DNA from: an uncultured Clostridia bacterium
Lineage (GTDB): Bacteria > Bacillota > Clostridia > Lachnospirales > CAG-274
Assembly (NCBI GenBank): GCA_944383305.1
Contig: CALWOZ010000005.1
Span: forward strand, 1 to 64,000
DNA: 64,000 nt
Direction of reading: 5' to 3'
The notes beneath the pieces were generated by a model. That model ran no database searches, was not told where the DNA came from, and worked only from the letters and a program-made list of their open reading frames with translations. The translations under genes were made by a program, and so were the position numbers. This document shows, one piece after another, positions 9,771 to 16,680 of this stretch. Each line of letters begins with the position of its first letter. Positions within the stretch are counted from its first letter, which is position 1.

Positions 9771-10640
9771 TTATTTTACAAGATAGCACTTGCTACAACC
9801 AGTAGGAGTTTTTGCACAGCCACCTAAGGCAGTTTCTCTAAGTTCAGATGGCATTGTCTTACCAACAGAATACATACAGTCAATCATTTCATCTAAAGGT
9901 ATAATATTTGATATACCAGCTAAAGCCATTTCAGCACATATTAAGGAGTTTGTAGTGCCTATACCATTTCTAGCTTGACAAGGAACTTCAACAAGACCAG
10001 CAACAGGGTCACAAACAAGTCCTAAAAGGTTTTGTAAAGCAGTAGAGGCAGCGTACATACATTGTTTAGGAGAGCCACCCATCATTTCAACAGCTGCAGA
10101 GGCTGCCATAGCAGAAGCAGAACCAACCTCAGCTTGACAACCAGCTTCAGCACCAGCAACGGAGGCATTTCTCATTAATAAATAACCAATAGCACTAGCA
10201 TTAAATAAACCATTTAATACACATTCATCAGAAAGGTTAAATTCTTCTTGTAATGCTAATAATAAACCAGGAACAACACCAGCAGCACCAGCAGTAGGAG
10301 CAGCTACAATAATCCCCATACCAGTATTTACCTCTAACACACCAAGAGCATAAGCTAGAGCTTTTGTTGTAAGACTACCAGATAAAGATTTACCCTCTTT
10401 TAATCTATCAATAAGCTTTTTTTCTTCTCCACCGATTAATCCACCCATAGTTTTAATAGGTTGTTCCAAGGGGGCTTTAACAGCAGATTTCATTATATTT
10501 AAAGATTTAGTCATTTTTTTAATAATATCTTCTCTTGAATCACTTGTGTTGGCTAATTCACGTCTAATCATTACCTCTGATATAGGAAGATTGTTTTTTT
10601 CACATAGTTCTAAAAGTTCATTGGCATAATTAAAATTCAC
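9771..10640 (-). CDS. sdaAA: L-serine dehydratase, iron-sulfur, alpha subunit
   Basis: The protein (289 residues) is the catalytic half of the two-subunit, oxygen-sensitive [4Fe-4S] L-serine deaminase, which turns serine into pyruvate and ammonia. Family motifs include the glycine-rich GIIVAAPTAGAAGVVPG, VGSASAMAA and CDPVAGLVEVPC. Cysteines likely to hold the cluster are in CDPVAG, VPCQARN and the C-terminal GGCAKTPTGC. It lies 12 bases downstream of sdaAB and is co-oriented with it, the standard gene order in Firmicutes. Confidence 0.96.
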   Translation of the reverse strand: MNFNYANELLELCEKNNLPISEVMIRRELANTSDSREDIIKKMTKSLNIMKSAVKAPLEQPIKTMGGLIGGEEKKLIDRLKEGKSLSGSLTTKALAYALGVLEVNTGMGIIVAAPTAGAAGVVPGLLLALQEEFNLSDECVLNGLFNASAIGYLLMRNASVAGAEAGCQAEVGSASAMAASAAVEMMGGSPKQCMYAASTALQNLLGLVCDPVAGLVEVPCQARNGIGTTNSLICAEMALAGISNIIPLDEMIDCMYSVGKTMPSELRETALGGCAKTPTGCSKCYLVK

Positions 10641-10652
10641 AGTAGTACCTCC

Positions 10653-11318
10653 TTATATTTGAACTAACATTACATTTAGAATATTTTTATTTTGTTTTAA
10701 AGAATTTATTATGCTATCATTTATTTTATCATCACATTCTATAATAGAATGTGCCTTTTCTCCTTTTGCGTCACGATATACTTTCATAAATGCTATATTC
10801 ATATTATTATCTTGTAGGCAGTTAGCCACAAATGCTAATACACCTTTTTCATCTAAATGGTCAATAATTAGCGTAGGATATTCTCCAAAAAATTCTACTG
10901 TTATATTGTCAATAGCAACTATTTTAATCTTACCTCCACCAATAGATACACCTCTAACAACCATTTTCTCTCCTGTTTTACTTTCCATACAAACATCTAC
11001 AACATTTGGGTGGTCTAAATCTATGTTACTTTCTTCAAAAGAGTAAGTTATACCAAGTTGTTTCGCTATATTAAAAGAATCTTTTATCCTTAAATCATCA
11101 GATGCAAAACCAAGACTACCACCTAATAAAGCTTTGTCTGTTCCGTGACCTTTATATGTTTTAGCAAAAGAACCGTATAATATAAATTTTACGTTACTTA
11201 TTTCCTTACCAAACATTTTTCTTGCTATAGAAGATATAGAGACTGCGCCAGCTGTATGAGAACTAGACGGACCTACCATATTGGGACCTACTACATCAAA
11301 GATACTAATGAAACTCAT
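10653..11318 (-). CDS. sdaAB: L-serine dehydratase, iron-sulfur, beta subunit
   Basis: This 221-residue subunit partners SdaAA. The family signature VGPSSSHTAGA lies near the N-terminus, and an ACT-type regulatory segment (about 145-220) with DHLDEKGVLAFVANCLQ follows. The SSHTAG motif forms part of the serine-binding site at the subunit interface. It is the first gene of the minus-strand unit sdaAB-sdaAA-small membrane gene, with an AAGGAGG-type ribosome site. Repeat copy D separates it from the symporter gene. Confidence 0.96.
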   Translation of the reverse strand: MSFISIFDVVGPNMVGPSSSHTAGAVSISSIARKMFGKEISNVKFILYGSFAKTYKGHGTDKALLGGSLGFASDDLRIKDSFNIAKQLGITYSFEESNIDLDHPNVVDVCMESKTGEKMVVRGVSIGGGKIKIVAIDNITVEFFGEYPTLIIDHLDEKGVLAFVANCLQDNNMNIAFMKVYRDAKGEKAHSIIECDDKINDSIINSLKQNKNILNVMLVQI

Positions 11319-11463: not shown

Positions 11464-12672
11464 TTTTATATATTTTTTATAAAAATTATCAACAATGATA
11501 GCAATTGCATTATCTCCAGATACATTACAAGCGGTGCCAAAGCTATCTTGAGTAATATATAAAGTTATTAAAAGTCCGGCTAAGGCTCCATCAGGGTCTA
11601 TACCTACCATTGATAGAAATGGAACAGCGGACATAATAGCTCCACCAGGTGCACCAGGTGCTGCAATCATTACAACTGCTAGTGTTAGTATAAACGGAAT
11701 TATTATTCCAAAATTTATATCTAGATTATTCATTAATAAAACACTTGTCACACAAGAAGTTATAGTTATCATACTACCAGCTAAATGAATGTTTGCACAT
11801 AGAGGGATAACAAATTCTCTTATTTGAGGAGAGGTATTATTTTTTTTAGCACAATCTAAGTTTATAGGGATTGTAGCAGCCGAAGATTGTGTTCCTATTG
11901 CTGTTAAATATGCAGGTATTTGATTTTTTAAAAGTTTTAAAGGATTTTTTTTACCAATAAAACCAGCAAATATAAATATTGCTATAATATATAGAATATG
12001 AAGTATAATAACTGTTATAAAGACTTTCCATAATACAGAAAGTATAGAAAAAGCTTGACCACTATATGTTAAATTTGCAAATGTTGATAATATATAAAAA
12101 GGTATAAAAGGAATTATTGCTTTATTTAAAACTTTTGTTATAATTATAGAAAATTCTGTAAAAAAGTCATAAGTAATATATCCTATTTCTTTACCTTTCA
12201 TTGTACTAATTGATAAACCTAATAAAAACGCTAATACAACAGCAGAGGTAACATCAAATAGTGGATTTAACTCAATAGAGAACAAAGGTTGTATAAAAGC
12301 AGTTTCATCAGTTAAATTTGTAAATACATTATTAGCCATAAAGTATGGAAAAAGATTAATAGCTACTATATATGCTATTGTACCAGCTATTAATGTTGAC
12401 ATATAAGAAACAAAAGTTGTAAATCCAAGTAATTTACCAGCGCCTTGACTTAAATCGGAAATACCTTTTGTTATATATGCTAATATCATAAGAGGTATTA
12501 TAAATTTTAAAAATAAGCTAAAAAAATTAGCTAATGTAACAACTATTTTCATTATAATTTCAAAACTTTCAAATCCTTTAATAGATAATATTAAAGTAGA
12601 ATATCCTAGTAAAATGCCTAGCACAATACCAGCAATAAGTTTTGGAATAAGTCCTATTTTCTTTTTTTGCAT
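11461..12672 (-). CDS. Dicarboxylate/amino acid:cation symporter, possibly SstT-like
   Basis: This 403-residue membrane protein of the DAACS family imports an anionic or neutral amino acid with sodium or protons. It has about eight helices plus the re-entrant loop motif QSSAATIP and the conserved stretch GAPGGAIMSAVPF near the C-terminus. The neighbouring serine deaminase genes on the same strand suggest serine/threonine as substrate (SstT role), but glutamate or a dicarboxylate cannot be ruled out. The ribosome site is AAAGGAAC before the ATG. Confidence 0.88.
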   Translation of the reverse strand: MQKKKIGLIPKLIAGIVLGILLGYSTLILSIKGFESFEIIMKIVVTLANFFSLFLKFIIPLMILAYITKGISDLSQGAGKLLGFTTFVSYMSTLIAGTIAYIVAINLFPYFMANNVFTNLTDETAFIQPLFSIELNPLFDVTSAVVLAFLLGLSISTMKGKEIGYITYDFFTEFSIIITKVLNKAIIPFIPFYILSTFANLTYSGQAFSILSVLWKVFITVIILHILYIIAIFIFAGFIGKKNPLKLLKNQIPAYLTAIGTQSSAATIPINLDCAKKNNTSPQIREFVIPLCANIHLAGSMITITSCVTSVLLMNNLDINFGIIIPFILTLAVVMIAAPGAPGGAIMSAVPFLSMVGIDPDGALAGLLITLYITQDSFGTACNVSGDNAIAIIVDNFYKKYIK

Positions 12673-12927: not shown

Positions 12928-13425
12928 ATGAAGAAAATACCACTTTTTATATTATCTATTATACTTATATTTATAGACCAAATAGTTAAGTTTATATGTT
13001 TACAAAAACTAAAGCCAATAGGTTCTATTAAAGTCATAGAAAACTTTTTTTATCTTACTTATGTAGAAAACAAAGGAGCAGCCTTTGGTATGCTCCAAGG
13101 TGCTAGGTGGATATTTATAGGTATAGCTTTTATTGCAGTTATTTTTTGTATATATTATTATAATAAGTTACCTAAAAATAAGTTTTTAAATATTAGTAAA
13201 ATTTCATTAATATTTATTATAGCTGGTGCAATAGGTAATATGATAGATAGATTATTTAGAGGTTATGTTGTAGATATGTTTCATTTTATATTTTGGGGAA
13301 GAGAATTTGCCGTATTTAATGTGGCAGATATACTAGTGTGTGTAGGTACGTTTTTTATTGCAATAGCTATTATCTTTTCAGAAGATTCTAAAAAAGAAAA
13401 AATAGATAAAGAAAAGGGAGAATAG
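12928..13425 (+). CDS. lspA: Lipoprotein signal peptidase (signal peptidase II)
   Basis: This membrane aspartyl protease cuts the signal peptide from diacylglyceryl-modified prolipoproteins. The 165 residues carry four transmembrane segments. The catalytic dyad lies in GYVVDMF (Asp116) and FNVADI (Asp134), and the conserved ENKGAAFG and GNMIDRL motifs are present. It begins the lspA-rluD-pyrB-pyrC run known from Bacillus. The ribosome site is TTGGAGG. One substrate in this window is the GH85 lipoprotein. Confidence 0.96.
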   Translation: MKKIPLFILSIILIFIDQIVKFICLQKLKPIGSIKVIENFFYLTYVENKGAAFGMLQGARWIFIGIAFIAVIFCIYYYNKLPKNKFLNISKISLIFIIAGAIGNMIDRLFRGYVVDMFHFIFWGREFAVFNVADILVCVGTFFIAIAIIFSEDSKKEKIDKEKGE

Positions 13426-13427
13426 TT

Positions 13428-14339
13428 TTGAAACAACTAGAATTTACAATATTAAAAGAAGATGAAGATAAAAGAATAGATAATTTTTTAAATGAAAATT
13501 TAGAAGATATATCAAGAAGTAGAATACAAAAACTTATAGAAGAAAATCAAGTATTAGTAAATAACAAAAATATTAATAAAAATTATAAGTTAAAAATAAA
13601 TGATTATATTGTTGTAAATATAGAAGAACCAAAAGAAATAGATATTCTTCCAGAAAATATACCTCTTGATATAGTTTATGAAGATGATGATGTTATACTT
13701 ATAAACAAACCTCAAAATATGGTTGTTCACCCTGCTAATGGACACTATACAAACACATTAGTAAACGCTTTAATGTTTCATTGTAAAGATAATTTATCTG
13801 GAATAAATGGAGCTTTGCGTCCAGGGATAGTACATCGTATAGACAAGGATACATCAGGGATACTTGTTGTTGCTAAAAATGATAAAGCTCATAAAAGTTT
13901 ATCAAATCAGCTAGAAAATCATTCTATGACTAGAGTATATTATGCTATTGTATATAATAATTTAAAAAATGACATAGGAACTATAGATAAACCAATAGGG
14001 AGACACCCGATAGATAGAAAGAAAATGGCAGTTATAGAAAAAAACGGTAAAAGAGCAGTGACACATTATGAAGTGTTAAAGAGATTTAAAAAGTATACAT
14101 TCATTAGACTAAAATTAGAAACAGGTAGAACTCATCAAATAAGAGTGCATATGGCATATATAGGCAACCCTCTTTTAGGAGATACTACTTATGGAGGACA
14201 AAAACAACCATTCAAACTTGTAGGGCAAGTATTACACGCTAAGGTTTTAGGATTTATACACCCAACTACAAATGAATATATGGAATTTGAAACAGAGTTA
14301 CCACAATATTTTAATGAACTTTTAAACAAACTACAATAA
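13428..14339 (+). CDS. Pseudouridine synthase, RluA/RluD family
   Basis: This 303-residue enzyme isomerises uridine to pseudouridine, most likely in 23S rRNA. An S4 RNA-binding domain (about 14-75) precedes the catalytic domain, whose aspartate lies in HRIDKDTSG (Asp139). The arginine-rich GRTHQIRVH motif follows. It starts with TTG three bases after lspA, with GGGAG seven bases upstream. The position after lspA matches B. subtilis ylyB. The exact target uridines cannot be read from sequence. Confidence 0.93.
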   Translation: MKQLEFTILKEDEDKRIDNFLNENLEDISRSRIQKLIEENQVLVNNKNINKNYKLKINDYIVVNIEEPKEIDILPENIPLDIVYEDDDVILINKPQNMVVHPANGHYTNTLVNALMFHCKDNLSGINGALRPGIVHRIDKDTSGILVVAKNDKAHKSLSNQLENHSMTRVYYAIVYNNLKNDIGTIDKPIGRHPIDRKKMAVIEKNGKRAVTHYEVLKRFKKYTFIRLKLETGRTHQIRVHMAYIGNPLLGDTTYGGQKQPFKLVGQVLHAKVLGFIHPTTNEYMEFETELPQYFNELLNKLQ

Positions 14340-14357
14340 ATGTAAAGGAGAAACTCT

Positions 14358-15281
14358 ATGATTTTTCAAAGAAAAGATTTTATAAGTCTTATGGATATAA
14401 GTGCTGAAGAAATATTACATATATTAGAAACAGCAGAAACTATGAAACACGTTATAGGTAAAAAAAATAAAAAATCACCTTATTTAGAGGGAAAATCAGT
14501 AATAGTTTTATTTTATGAAAAAAGTGTAAGAGCAAAACTTTCATATGAATTAGCTGCTCAATATTTAAGCGCTAATATAGTAGACATAGTAGTGTCTGAA
14601 ACTAATAATAGATATGAAAATTTACACGAGATGGGAAGAACAATAGACCAAATGGGAGCAGACTTTATAATATGTAGGCACCCTATGAGTGGAAGTGCTA
14701 AATTTATAGCTGAAAATGTTACTGCTAGTGTTATAAACGCAGGAGATGGCATTAATGAAAATCCTAGTCAAGCTCTTTTAGACTTAATGACTATAAAAAA
14801 TACTAAAGGTGGATTTAAAGGATTAAAAGTAGCTATTATAGGCGATGTTGAAAGTTCCAGAGTTACTAGAAGTAACATATGGGGACTTTTAAAATTAGGA
14901 GCAGACGTATGTGTGTCAGGACCTCCTACTATGATACCACCAGAGTTAGAAAAATTTGGCGTTAGAGTATATTATAATCCAAAAGAAGCTGTAAAAGACG
15001 CTGATGTTATAATGACACTTAGACTACAAGATGAAGTGTCTTATGGAAGTAAGTTAGCCTCTTTTAATGAATATAAAAACTTTTTTAAACTAGACGAAAC
15101 ACTTTTATCTTATGCAAGCAAAGACGCAATAGTAATGCACCCTGGAATGCCTCACAAAAGTATAGAAATATCTACATCTATATTAGAAACAACTCGTGTA
15201 CTAATGGACGACCAAATAACTAACGGCGTAGCTGTACGTATGGCTTTATTTTACTTATTATCTTTAGGAATGGGGGTATAA
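14358..15281 (+). CDS. pyrB: Aspartate carbamoyltransferase homologue with altered active site
   Basis: The 307-residue protein aligns end to end with PyrB, which makes carbamoyl-aspartate for pyrimidines. Family landmarks kept are RHP (Arg107), NAGDG, Q138ALLD, SRVTRSN (Arg168) and LRLQ (Arg222). Several catalytic positions differ. The carbamoyl-phosphate loop STRTR reads SVRAK (56-60), the lysine of the KGE loop is Arg85, the histidine of HPTQ is Asn135, and the proline of the HPAP loop is Met264. The gene is intact, with ribosome site AAAGGAG, in the ancestral pyr position after rluD. It may have lost or changed activity; an active enzyme would then be encoded elsewhere. The symbol marks homology only. 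Confidence 0.82.
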   Translation: MIFQRKDFISLMDISAEEILHILETAETMKHVIGKKNKKSPYLEGKSVIVLFYEKSVRAKLSYELAAQYLSANIVDIVVSETNNRYENLHEMGRTIDQMGADFIICRHPMSGSAKFIAENVTASVINAGDGINENPSQALLDLMTIKNTKGGFKGLKVAIIGDVESSRVTRSNIWGLLKLGADVCVSGPPTMIPPELEKFGVRVYYNPKEAVKDADVIMTLRLQDEVSYGSKLASFNEYKNFFKLDETLLSYASKDAIVMHPGMPHKSIEISTSILETTRVLMDDQITNGVAVRMALFYLLSLGMGV

Positions 15282-15286
15282 TTTAG

Positions 15287-16567
15287 ATGGATTTATTAAT
15301 AAAAAATGCCAAAATTGTGTCTAATGGTATAATGGAAAAAGAGTGTAAAGATATTTATATAGAAAATGGTGTTATAAAAAATATAGATAAAAACATAAAC
15401 GTAGAAAATATTAAAATATTAGATGCTAAAAATAACCTTGTGTTACCAGGATTTATAGATATTGAATGTAGAATATTTGAAAACGGATATGAAAGTAAAG
15501 AAAATGTAATAAAACTTTCACAAGCTGGTAGCAAGGGTGGATTTACTACTATAACTACGTCATCTTCAGCAAAGCCAATAGTAGATAATAAGACTGTTGT
15601 AGAATATATACACTCTAAATGTAAAGGGATAAATAATATAAATTTATATCCTATTGGAAATATGACTAAAGGTGGAGAAGGTAAAGAAATAGCAGAAATA
15701 GGTGAAATGATTTTAACAGGTGTTGTAGCCATATCCGATGGAGGAGTTCCCATAGAAGATACAAGTCTTTTAAGAGATATATTTTTATATTCTAAAATGT
15801 TTGATGTAACTCTTATGACTACTTTAATAGAACATAATTTATCTAAAAATGGAACTGTAAATTATGGATATATGGCAACAAAGTTAGGACTTATTGGCAT
15901 ACCTAGAGAAGCAGAAGAAATAGAAACATCTAAAAACATTATTTTGGCTAAATATACAGGAGCAAAGGTACATATATCTTATGTCACCACAAAAGGTGCA
16001 GTAGAACTTATTAGAAGTGCTAAAAAAGAAGGAGTAAATATAACTTGTAGCACAGCTCCACATTATTTTACTCTTACAGACAGTGCAATTGATAATTATA
16101 ACACTTTAGCAAAAGTTATGCCTCCTCTTAGAGAAGAAGAAGACATAATAGCTATAAAAGAGGGGCTTAAAGACGGAACAATAGATATAATAGCATCAGG
16201 ACATTCACCTTCTCTTTATGAAAAAAAGGTTATGGAGTTTGAAAGAGCGGACTTTGGTATATCTGGATTAGATGTTGCTTTTAACATTACTAATACAAAG
16301 CTTATAAAAGAAGGTGACTTTTCAATAGAAGACATAACATTATTTATGAGTAAAAATCCAGCAAAAATTTTAGGATTAAATAATAAAGGTGAAATAAAAC
16401 AAGGATATGATGCAGATATAATTATTATAGATAAAGATACAAAAAAGACTATTAAATCTAGTGAATTTGTATCCAGAGCTAAATATTCACCTTATGAAAA
16501 TATGACAGTTTTTGGCGATATATTAACAACAATAGTTGGTGGAAATATTTTATATAATAAAGAATAA
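15287..16567 (+). CDS. pyrC: Dihydroorotase-like protein lacking the metal ligands
   Basis: This 426-residue protein matches class I dihydroorotase throughout: LPGFID, NMTKGGEG, LGLIGIPREAE, MPPLREEED, KEGLKDGTIDIIA and the C-terminal MSKNPAKILGL. The binuclear metal site is gone, however. The HxH after the first strand reads ECR (60-62), the SDDG segment reads SDGG, the HCED motif reads IEHN (181-184), HISHVST reads HISYVTT (Tyr232), and ATDHAPH reads ASGHSPS (303-309). It cannot work as a normal metal-dependent dihydroorotase. Inactive homologues serve as scaffolds for PyrB in Pseudomonas. The gene starts six bases after the pyrB-like stop. Confidence 0.85.
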   Translation: MDLLIKNAKIVSNGIMEKECKDIYIENGVIKNIDKNINVENIKILDAKNNLVLPGFIDIECRIFENGYESKENVIKLSQAGSKGGFTTITTSSSAKPIVDNKTVVEYIHSKCKGINNINLYPIGNMTKGGEGKEIAEIGEMILTGVVAISDGGVPIEDTSLLRDIFLYSKMFDVTLMTTLIEHNLSKNGTVNYGYMATKLGLIGIPREAEEIETSKNIILAKYTGAKVHISYVTTKGAVELIRSAKKEGVNITCSTAPHYFTLTDSAIDNYNTLAKVMPPLREEEDIIAIKEGLKDGTIDIIASGHSPSLYEKKVMEFERADFGISGLDVAFNITNTKLIKEGDFSIEDITLFMSKNPAKILGLNNKGEIKQGYDADIIIIDKDTKKTIKSSEFVSRAKYSPYENMTVFGDILTTIVGGNILYNKE

Positions 16568-16651: not shown

Positions 16652-16680
16652 GAGAGTGGGGACTTCCCACTCTCCTTTTG
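16652..16680 (+). promoter_or_regulatory. Hairpin in the rimP leader, possible attenuator
   Basis: A nine-base perfect stem, GAGAGTGGG/CCCACTCTC, has a five-base loop (16652-16674) and is followed by CTTTTG. It lies between the promoter and rimP, about 45 bases before the start codon. The short U run would allow partial termination, which suits control of a translation/transcription-factor operon. The regulator is unknown. Confidence 0.6.

Follow-up and report, generated by a model that had tools for sequence, protein, structure and literature searches.

The pyrB'-pyrC' locus

The window, that is, the whole 64,000-nucleotide stretch analyzed here, contains two adjacent genes resembling pyrB and pyrC, which we refer to as pyrB' and pyrC'. 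The features of the locus and the basis of each assignment are as follows.

12928..13425, plus strand: lspA, signal peptidase II, heading the presumed lspA-rluD-pyrB'-pyrC' run (open reading frame)
13428..14339, plus strand: rluD-type pseudouridine synthase gene, a conserved neighbour (open reading frame)
14344..14350, plus strand: AAAGGAG ribosome-binding site of pyrB' (sequence)
14358..15281, plus strand: pyrB', degenerate aspartate-carbamoyltransferase-like protein, 307 aa (PF02729 and PF00185, NF002032, AlphaFold2 model, dN/dS)
14523..14537, plus strand: SVRAK at the phosphate-binding S-T-R-T-R place in PyrB' (Ser and Arg54 kept, T53 and T55 lost)
14610..14612, plus strand: Arg85 codon of pyrB' at the place of catalytic Lys84 in the 80s loop (residue comparison)
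14760..14762, plus strand: Asn135 codon of pyrB' at the place of catalytic His134 of HPxQ (residue comparison)
15287..16567, plus strand: pyrC', degenerate type-I dihydroorotase-like protein, 426 aa (TIGR00857, AlphaFold2 fold match)
15464..15472, plus strand: Glu60-Cys61-Arg62 of PyrC' at the metal-binding HxH place (residue comparison)
16199..16201, plus strand: Gly305 codon of pyrC' at the place of catalytic Asp304 (residue comparison)
16652..16674, plus strand: terminator-like hairpin between pyrC' and rimP (pattern match only)

The gene order lspA-rluD-pyrB-pyrC given in the original prediction was confirmed: lspA (12928) and rluD (13428) lie immediately 5' of the pair, with gaps of 18 nt between rluD and pyrB' and of 5 nt between pyrB' and pyrC'. 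Both reading frames are intact and full length at the positions claimed for them, and the AAAGGAG site is present. It was also right that this locus has no pyrR, no uraA/pyrP and none of the later pyr genes; rimP-nusA follow pyrC' instead. Rfam scans near the pair revealed no PyrR-binding leader and no other RNA. Just upstream of lspA, our own reading of the open frames places L-serine dehydratase genes sdaAA/sdaAB (9774-11318) and an sstT-like symporter gene (11464-12672), all on the minus strand.

Family assignment, fold and active-site residues

PyrB' carries the domains PF02729 and PF00185, scores 301.9 bits against NCBIfam NF002032 (cut-off 263) and agrees with aspartate carbamoyltransferases (ATCases) in the OTCace_N/OTCace fold and in overall sequence; the structures nearest to its AlphaFold2 model (pLDDT 91) are ATCases (Z 37). 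The pocket was compared at residues invariant in 25 canonical PyrB proteins (E. coli numbering). The window copy retains S52, R54, R105, Q137, R167, R229 and Q231, including R105, R167 and the aspartate motif RxQ (229/231), present as R107, R168, R222 and Q224. T53, T55, K84, H134 and P268 are replaced by V57, A59, R85, N135 and M264; the changes quoted for PyrB in the earlier reading (STRTR to SVRAK, K84 to Arg85, H134 to Asn135, P268 to Met264) are accordingly correct.

Among all PyrB' sequences, the binding residues R54 (98%), R105 (98%), R167 (100%), Q137 (94%) and S52 (89%) are widely kept, and the catalytic residues H134 (0%), T55 (9%) and K84 (11%) are not. Thus, position 134 is occupied by N in 62 and by D in 12 of 74 sequences and never by H, which is present in 25/25 canonical PyrB. 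Lys84, which the 80s loop of the neighbouring subunit supplies together with a Ser, is found in 25/25 canonical PyrB vs about 11% of PyrB'. R229/Q231 are only partly kept across the clade, although nearly every member has R or K at position 229. The pocket varies by family, with N or D at position 134 and a variable position 84; in families f3, f17 and f18, the set S-S-R-S-K / N134 / K229 is nearly fixed. SxRT, HPxQ and HxLP are marks of all known transcarbamylases (PMC4581275, PMC4016543). Judged by these residues, PyrB' should not be called an aspartate carbamoyltransferase.

PyrC' scores 336 bits against TIGR00857 (cut-off 279) and corresponds to type-I dihydroorotases (DHOases) in fold and overall sequence. 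The first match of its AlphaFold2 model (pLDDT 93) is 4bjh_A, the Aquifex DHOase of the ATCase complex (Z 56.5; Z 56 for 4bjh/3d6n), and the other top matches are type-I DHOases. None of the six site residues (B. anthracis numbering) is left in the window copy, in which H59, H61, D151, H178, H231 and D304 are replaced by E60, R62, G152, T179, Y232 and G305. The metal-site changes had therefore been read correctly for HxH to ECR, D151 to G152, H178 to T179, H231 to Y232 and D304 to G305, with one exception: HCED aligns with TLIE, not with IEHN. Position 304 is G in 30/30 family members and D in 25/25 canonical PyrC.

Every PyrC' of the census lacks H61, R63 and D151 and at least two of the six metal or catalytic residues. 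The ten f3/f17/f18 sequences each retain exactly four of the six, those from f4/f12/f13 retain 0-3 and those from f1 retain 0-2, and D304 is lost in every PyrC' from f1, f4, f12 and f13. Canonical PyrC proteins have 6/6, with the exception of genus g11 (see below). On this residue evidence, the dihydroorotase label should not be applied to PyrC' either.

Working enzymes in the same genome and in other carriers

The possibility of a second, canonical pyrB and pyrC in the genome, raised with the original prediction, is borne out by a complete pair on contig C2 (L173), arranged as pyrB-pyrC-pyrF-carA-carB-pyrK with every catalytic residue intact. Its identity to the window pair is 44% and 38%, respectively. 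The contig C2 pair shares the pyrB-pyrC order with the window pair; unlike the latter, it has intact catalytic residues and lies inside pyrBCF-carAB-pyrK. The pyrD gene follows pyrK beyond an inserted element, and no pyrE gene exceeded the cut-off of the PyrE model in this genome, a model that also stayed below its cut-off in 4/14 controls. The integrated element between pyrK and pyrD (about 30.2-38.9 kb of contig C2 in the window genome, G000; L256 1702-10000) encodes a tyrosine integrase, a D5-like primase and a capsid-like protein of 278 aa.

Of the other carriers checked, nearly all likewise have genes for a working ATCase and DHOase at another locus. A canonical type-A pair was found in f1 and in genomes G205, G102, G093, G153, G063, G075 and G049, while many f4/f12/f13/f18 genomes have instead a class-B ATCase with intact STRTR and HPTQ and an adjoining PyrI-like gene. 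Since the pair is kept beside class-B ATCases too, its retention is independent of a type-A partner. Canonical-type PyrC was detected in all but one (G073) of the 22 genomes checked. G073, a 1.5-Mb draft, has no other ATCase and no canonical PyrC, and its own pair is damaged; this one case suggests, only weakly, that retention is tied to the pyrimidine pathway as such. In G150, a 92% complete draft, the pair and a PyrC are present and a true ATCase was not found. A role of PyrB' as the catalytic chain of a PyrBI enzyme was ruled out, PyrI being absent from the 48 genomes of the window family.

The true ATCase is patchily distributed in the order: some families have a type-A enzyme with PyrC, others a class-B enzyme with PyrI, a pattern suggesting that the pyr operon was replaced repeatedly. 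The canonical operon of genus g11 encodes a PyrC that has itself lost metal-site residues (NHRNGYHHD, NHRDAHTHN and NHKDGISHA in G046, G045 and G047; L184 4877-6172, L288 1258-2538 and L289 1842-3131, respectively). The adjacent PyrB is intact, as read from its motifs in G046, a genome that also has another, intact PyrC of 37% identity (L287 1561-2847). Going by these motifs, the g11 PyrC is a putative second, independent and Pseudomonas-like origin of a pseudo-DHOase.

Distribution and the ancestral locus

In the window family, the pair is present in about 30 of 48 genomes and missing in genera g4, g6 and g11. Across the order, which is probably Lachnospirales, motif-checked pairs were identified in at least seven families (f1, f3, f4, f12, f13, f17 and f18); the examples from f2 and f20 were canonical, and in f5, probably Lachnospiraceae, the pair was not found by score. 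Dozens of independent genomes show these same residue changes. Among 293 genomes sampled from the class, the eight top-scoring candidates for additional PyrB' outside the order proved to be canonical by motif; a high bit score against the PyrB' profile is therefore not enough to identify the clade.

In most loci of the seven families, lspA(-rluD) is located upstream of the pair. The view that this is the ancestral pyr locus is well supported by relatives: f17/f18 keep lspA-rluD-pyrR-uraA-pyrB'-pyrC' (uraA is missing in some), and Caldicoprobacter, outside the order, keeps lspA-rluD-pyrR-pyrB-pyrC-pyrF-carB-pyrK with canonical residues. Among 23 genomes searched, PyrR was found only in f17/f18. 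The pair has moved away from lspA-rluD in f18 genus g65 and in f1 genera g7 and g9, remaining adjacent each time, and the neighbour genes of the relocated pairs give no common functional hint.

Phylogeny, decay and selection

The 54 PyrB' and the 53 PyrC' sequences each form one clade (SH-aLRT 100 in both trees). The main split, f3/f17/f18 vs f13, f4/f12 and f1, is the same in the two trees, and the pairwise identities of PyrB' and PyrC' are correlated (r=0.80), which is what joint inheritance of the two genes would give. The graded residue counts of PyrC', with first losses common to all members, indicate stepwise decay. The claim that both partners had shifted together holds for the first changes (H134N in PyrB'; loss of H61 and D151 in PyrC'), which lie at the clade base in both, but not for what came after, when PyrC' decayed further step by step, whereas PyrB' was tightly constrained.

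Another important question is whether the pair is maintained by selection, as had been proposed. In eight genomes of the window genus, median dN/dS (NG86) was 0.049 for pyrB' and 0.153 for pyrC', compared with 0.097 for canonical pyrB, 0.084 for canonical pyrC, 0.112 for rluD and 0.192 for lspA, all of these values being approximate given the high dS (0.6-0.8). Selection on the pair is thus purifying, and the low value for pyrB' excludes a pseudogene in the window genus. Frame disruption in relatives is also rare: among some 75 loci, frames are full length in about 70 and two are damaged. In draft G073, an insert of about 640 bp interrupts pyrC' (L148 7230-7889); in draft G218, pyrC' has one frameshift (L301 1299-1820) and the adjoining pyrB' is intact.

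Proposed function and alternatives

Taken together, the pair probably has a new, mostly non-catalytic job and is mislabelled in databases. We propose, with a rough probability of 0.45, that PyrB' and PyrC' form a double-pseudoenzyme complex of the ATCase-DHOase type, which would bind a ligand without turnover and sense or regulate pyrimidine metabolism. The two proteins would be old ATCase-DHOase copies left in the ancestral locus, synthesis having been taken over by another pyr operon. They may assemble like the ATCase-DHOase particle of Aquifex or Pseudomonas, with PyrC' as a metal-free scaffold. PyrB' appears to keep the arginines that grip phosphate and carboxylate/ribose (R54, R105, R167 and R/K229) and not the residues of transfer (K84, H134 and T55); on this ground it is proposed to bind a ligand of the pyrimidine pathway without turning it over. 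Candidates are carbamoyl phosphate, UMP or a similar compound, and the particle could report on the bound ligand as a sensor or regulatory complex of pyrimidine metabolism. In the active site of Arabidopsis ATC, UMP is bound via R136, T137, R187, H215, R248 and R310 (PMC7878868); by our own mapping, R136, R187, R248 and R310 would correspond to E. coli positions R54, R105, R167 and R229.

This proposal is favoured by the complete canonical pair and operon that the genome has on contig C2, by the adjacency that survives relocation, by the pyrR and uraA genes preceding the pair in f17/f18 and by the damage to the pair in G073, the sole small genome without another ATCase or PyrC. The predicted fold of PyrC', nearest to the Aquifex DHOase of the ATCase complex, points the same way. 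On the other side, the conserved sites of f3/f17/f18 (four PyrC' residues; SSRSK, N134 and K229) could mean that altered chemistry is retained there, and the kept arginines would be equally useful to an active transferase. In addition, R229/Q231 are not uniformly kept, and a PyrR-type RNA element was not found in the Rfam scans. Only tentatively, with the odds somewhat against it, do we suggest that two dead pyrimidine enzymes jointly make up a dedicated metabolite-sensing complex (for carbamoyl phosphate or a pyrimidine nucleotide), a regulatory particle consisting of pseudoenzymes throughout and retained in much of the order beside the working enzymes.

The main competing explanation is that of an altered transferase: PyrB' would be a transcarbamylase that is active on a new acceptor or donor, with PyrC' as its structural partner, like the inactive PyrC' of the Pseudomonas ATCase. 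The stronger constraint on PyrB' than on PyrC' would suit a pair of one active and one passive chain; S52, R54, R105, Q137 and R167 are kept; and other pseudo-ATCases proved to be real transferases (UGTCase, PMC4016543). It is most plausible in f3/f17/f18, where the modified pocket is nearly fixed. However, the SxRT and HPxQ motifs kept by all known transcarbamylases, including three pseudo-ATCase groups, are broken in PyrB' (PMC4581275, PMC4016543), the 80s-loop Lys/Ser of the neighbouring subunit is lost and the pocket differs among families, so that we consider this explanation rather doubtful.

PyrB' and PyrC' might instead be regulatory subunits that enter mixed trimers or dodecamers with canonical PyrB and PyrC and tune them. 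Homology would permit such assembly, f1 has a canonical type-A pair, and PyrI occurs in 0/48 genomes of the family. Nevertheless, many f4/f12/f13/f18 genomes keep the pair while having as true ATCase a distant class-B enzyme with an adjoining PyrI, and the same canonical operon operates without the pair in g4, g6 and g11, which makes this explanation unlikely.

Collapsin response mediator proteins (CRMPs) of animals, which are neuronal and belong to the dihydropyrimidinase branch, have a metal-free cyclic amidohydrolase fold and non-enzymatic roles. By analogy, the pair could moonlight outside pyrimidine metabolism, as a scaffold or a nucleic-acid-binding complex, and in f1 the PyrC' site is wholly or nearly lost and the pair is kept without a common pyrimidine neighbour. 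We regard this as quite improbable: pocket arginines are kept far above catalytic residues, pyrR-uraA are still neighbours in f17/f18, and in a single case, G073, the pair decayed where the pathway was lost.

Finally, the progressive loss of catalytic residues and the damaged pyrC' genes of the G073 and G218 drafts might suggest pseudogenes decaying after operon replacement, a reading that has hardly any probability left in view of the full-length frames in the other loci, dN/dS ranges of 0.02-0.11 for PyrB' and 0.10-0.28 for PyrC', a constraint on PyrB' tighter than on canonical PyrB and retention across at least seven families, and that the selection data refute for PyrB' in the window genus.

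As both proteins score above the NCBIfam cut-offs, automatic pipelines would name both genes active enzymes, and pathway predictions in these gut bacteria can miscount the pair as ATCase plus DHOase, an annotation that needs correction. The PyrC series, with six, four and then 0-3 site residues, provides a graded natural record of an enzyme pair turning into a non-enzyme.

Comparison with known systems

Inactive DHOase partners of active ATCases and ATCase paralogues with new substrates are already known. When the literature was searched for paralogous or pseudo versions of the pyrB-pyrC pair in these bacteria, only Pseudomonas PyrC' and pseudo-ATCases 1-3 came up, and a doubly degenerate pair spread over at least seven families, with PyrB' under tighter constraint than the working enzyme, had no precedent in the literature searched. 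CRMPs share the metal-free fold with PyrC' but, unlike it, are without an ATCase partner.

The closest folds are those of the Aquifex aeolicus ATCase-DHOase (PDB 3d6n, 4bjh; Z 56 for PyrC', and Z 37 for PyrB' among the top ATCases), whose genes are homologues of the pair. The Aquifex complex runs both reactions, whereas the window copy has none of the DHOase ligands and a broken ATCase site.

Pseudo-ATCases 1-3 keep STRT and HPTQ and have an altered aspartate site (HxLP and RxQ), and one of them is a real transferase, ureidoglycine transcarbamylase (UGTCase) (Barba et al. 2013, PMC4016543). Like PyrB', they are ATCase paralogues annotated as ATCases beside an authentic one. PyrB' shows the reverse pattern, in which the Thr of SxRT and the His of HPxQ are lost, and is accompanied by a dead DHOase.

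In Pseudomonas, an inactive DHOase chain is required for ATCase assembly (PMC7053772). As in this class A2 ATCase, pyrB and pyrC are adjacent at the window locus, and a DHOase-like chain without a metal site, inactive as judged from its residues, is kept as a putative partner and encoded beside the ATCase-like chain. The Pseudomonas ATCase chain, however, is catalytically complete and is the ATCase of the cell, while the ATCase-like chain of the window is degenerate and another ATCase does its job.
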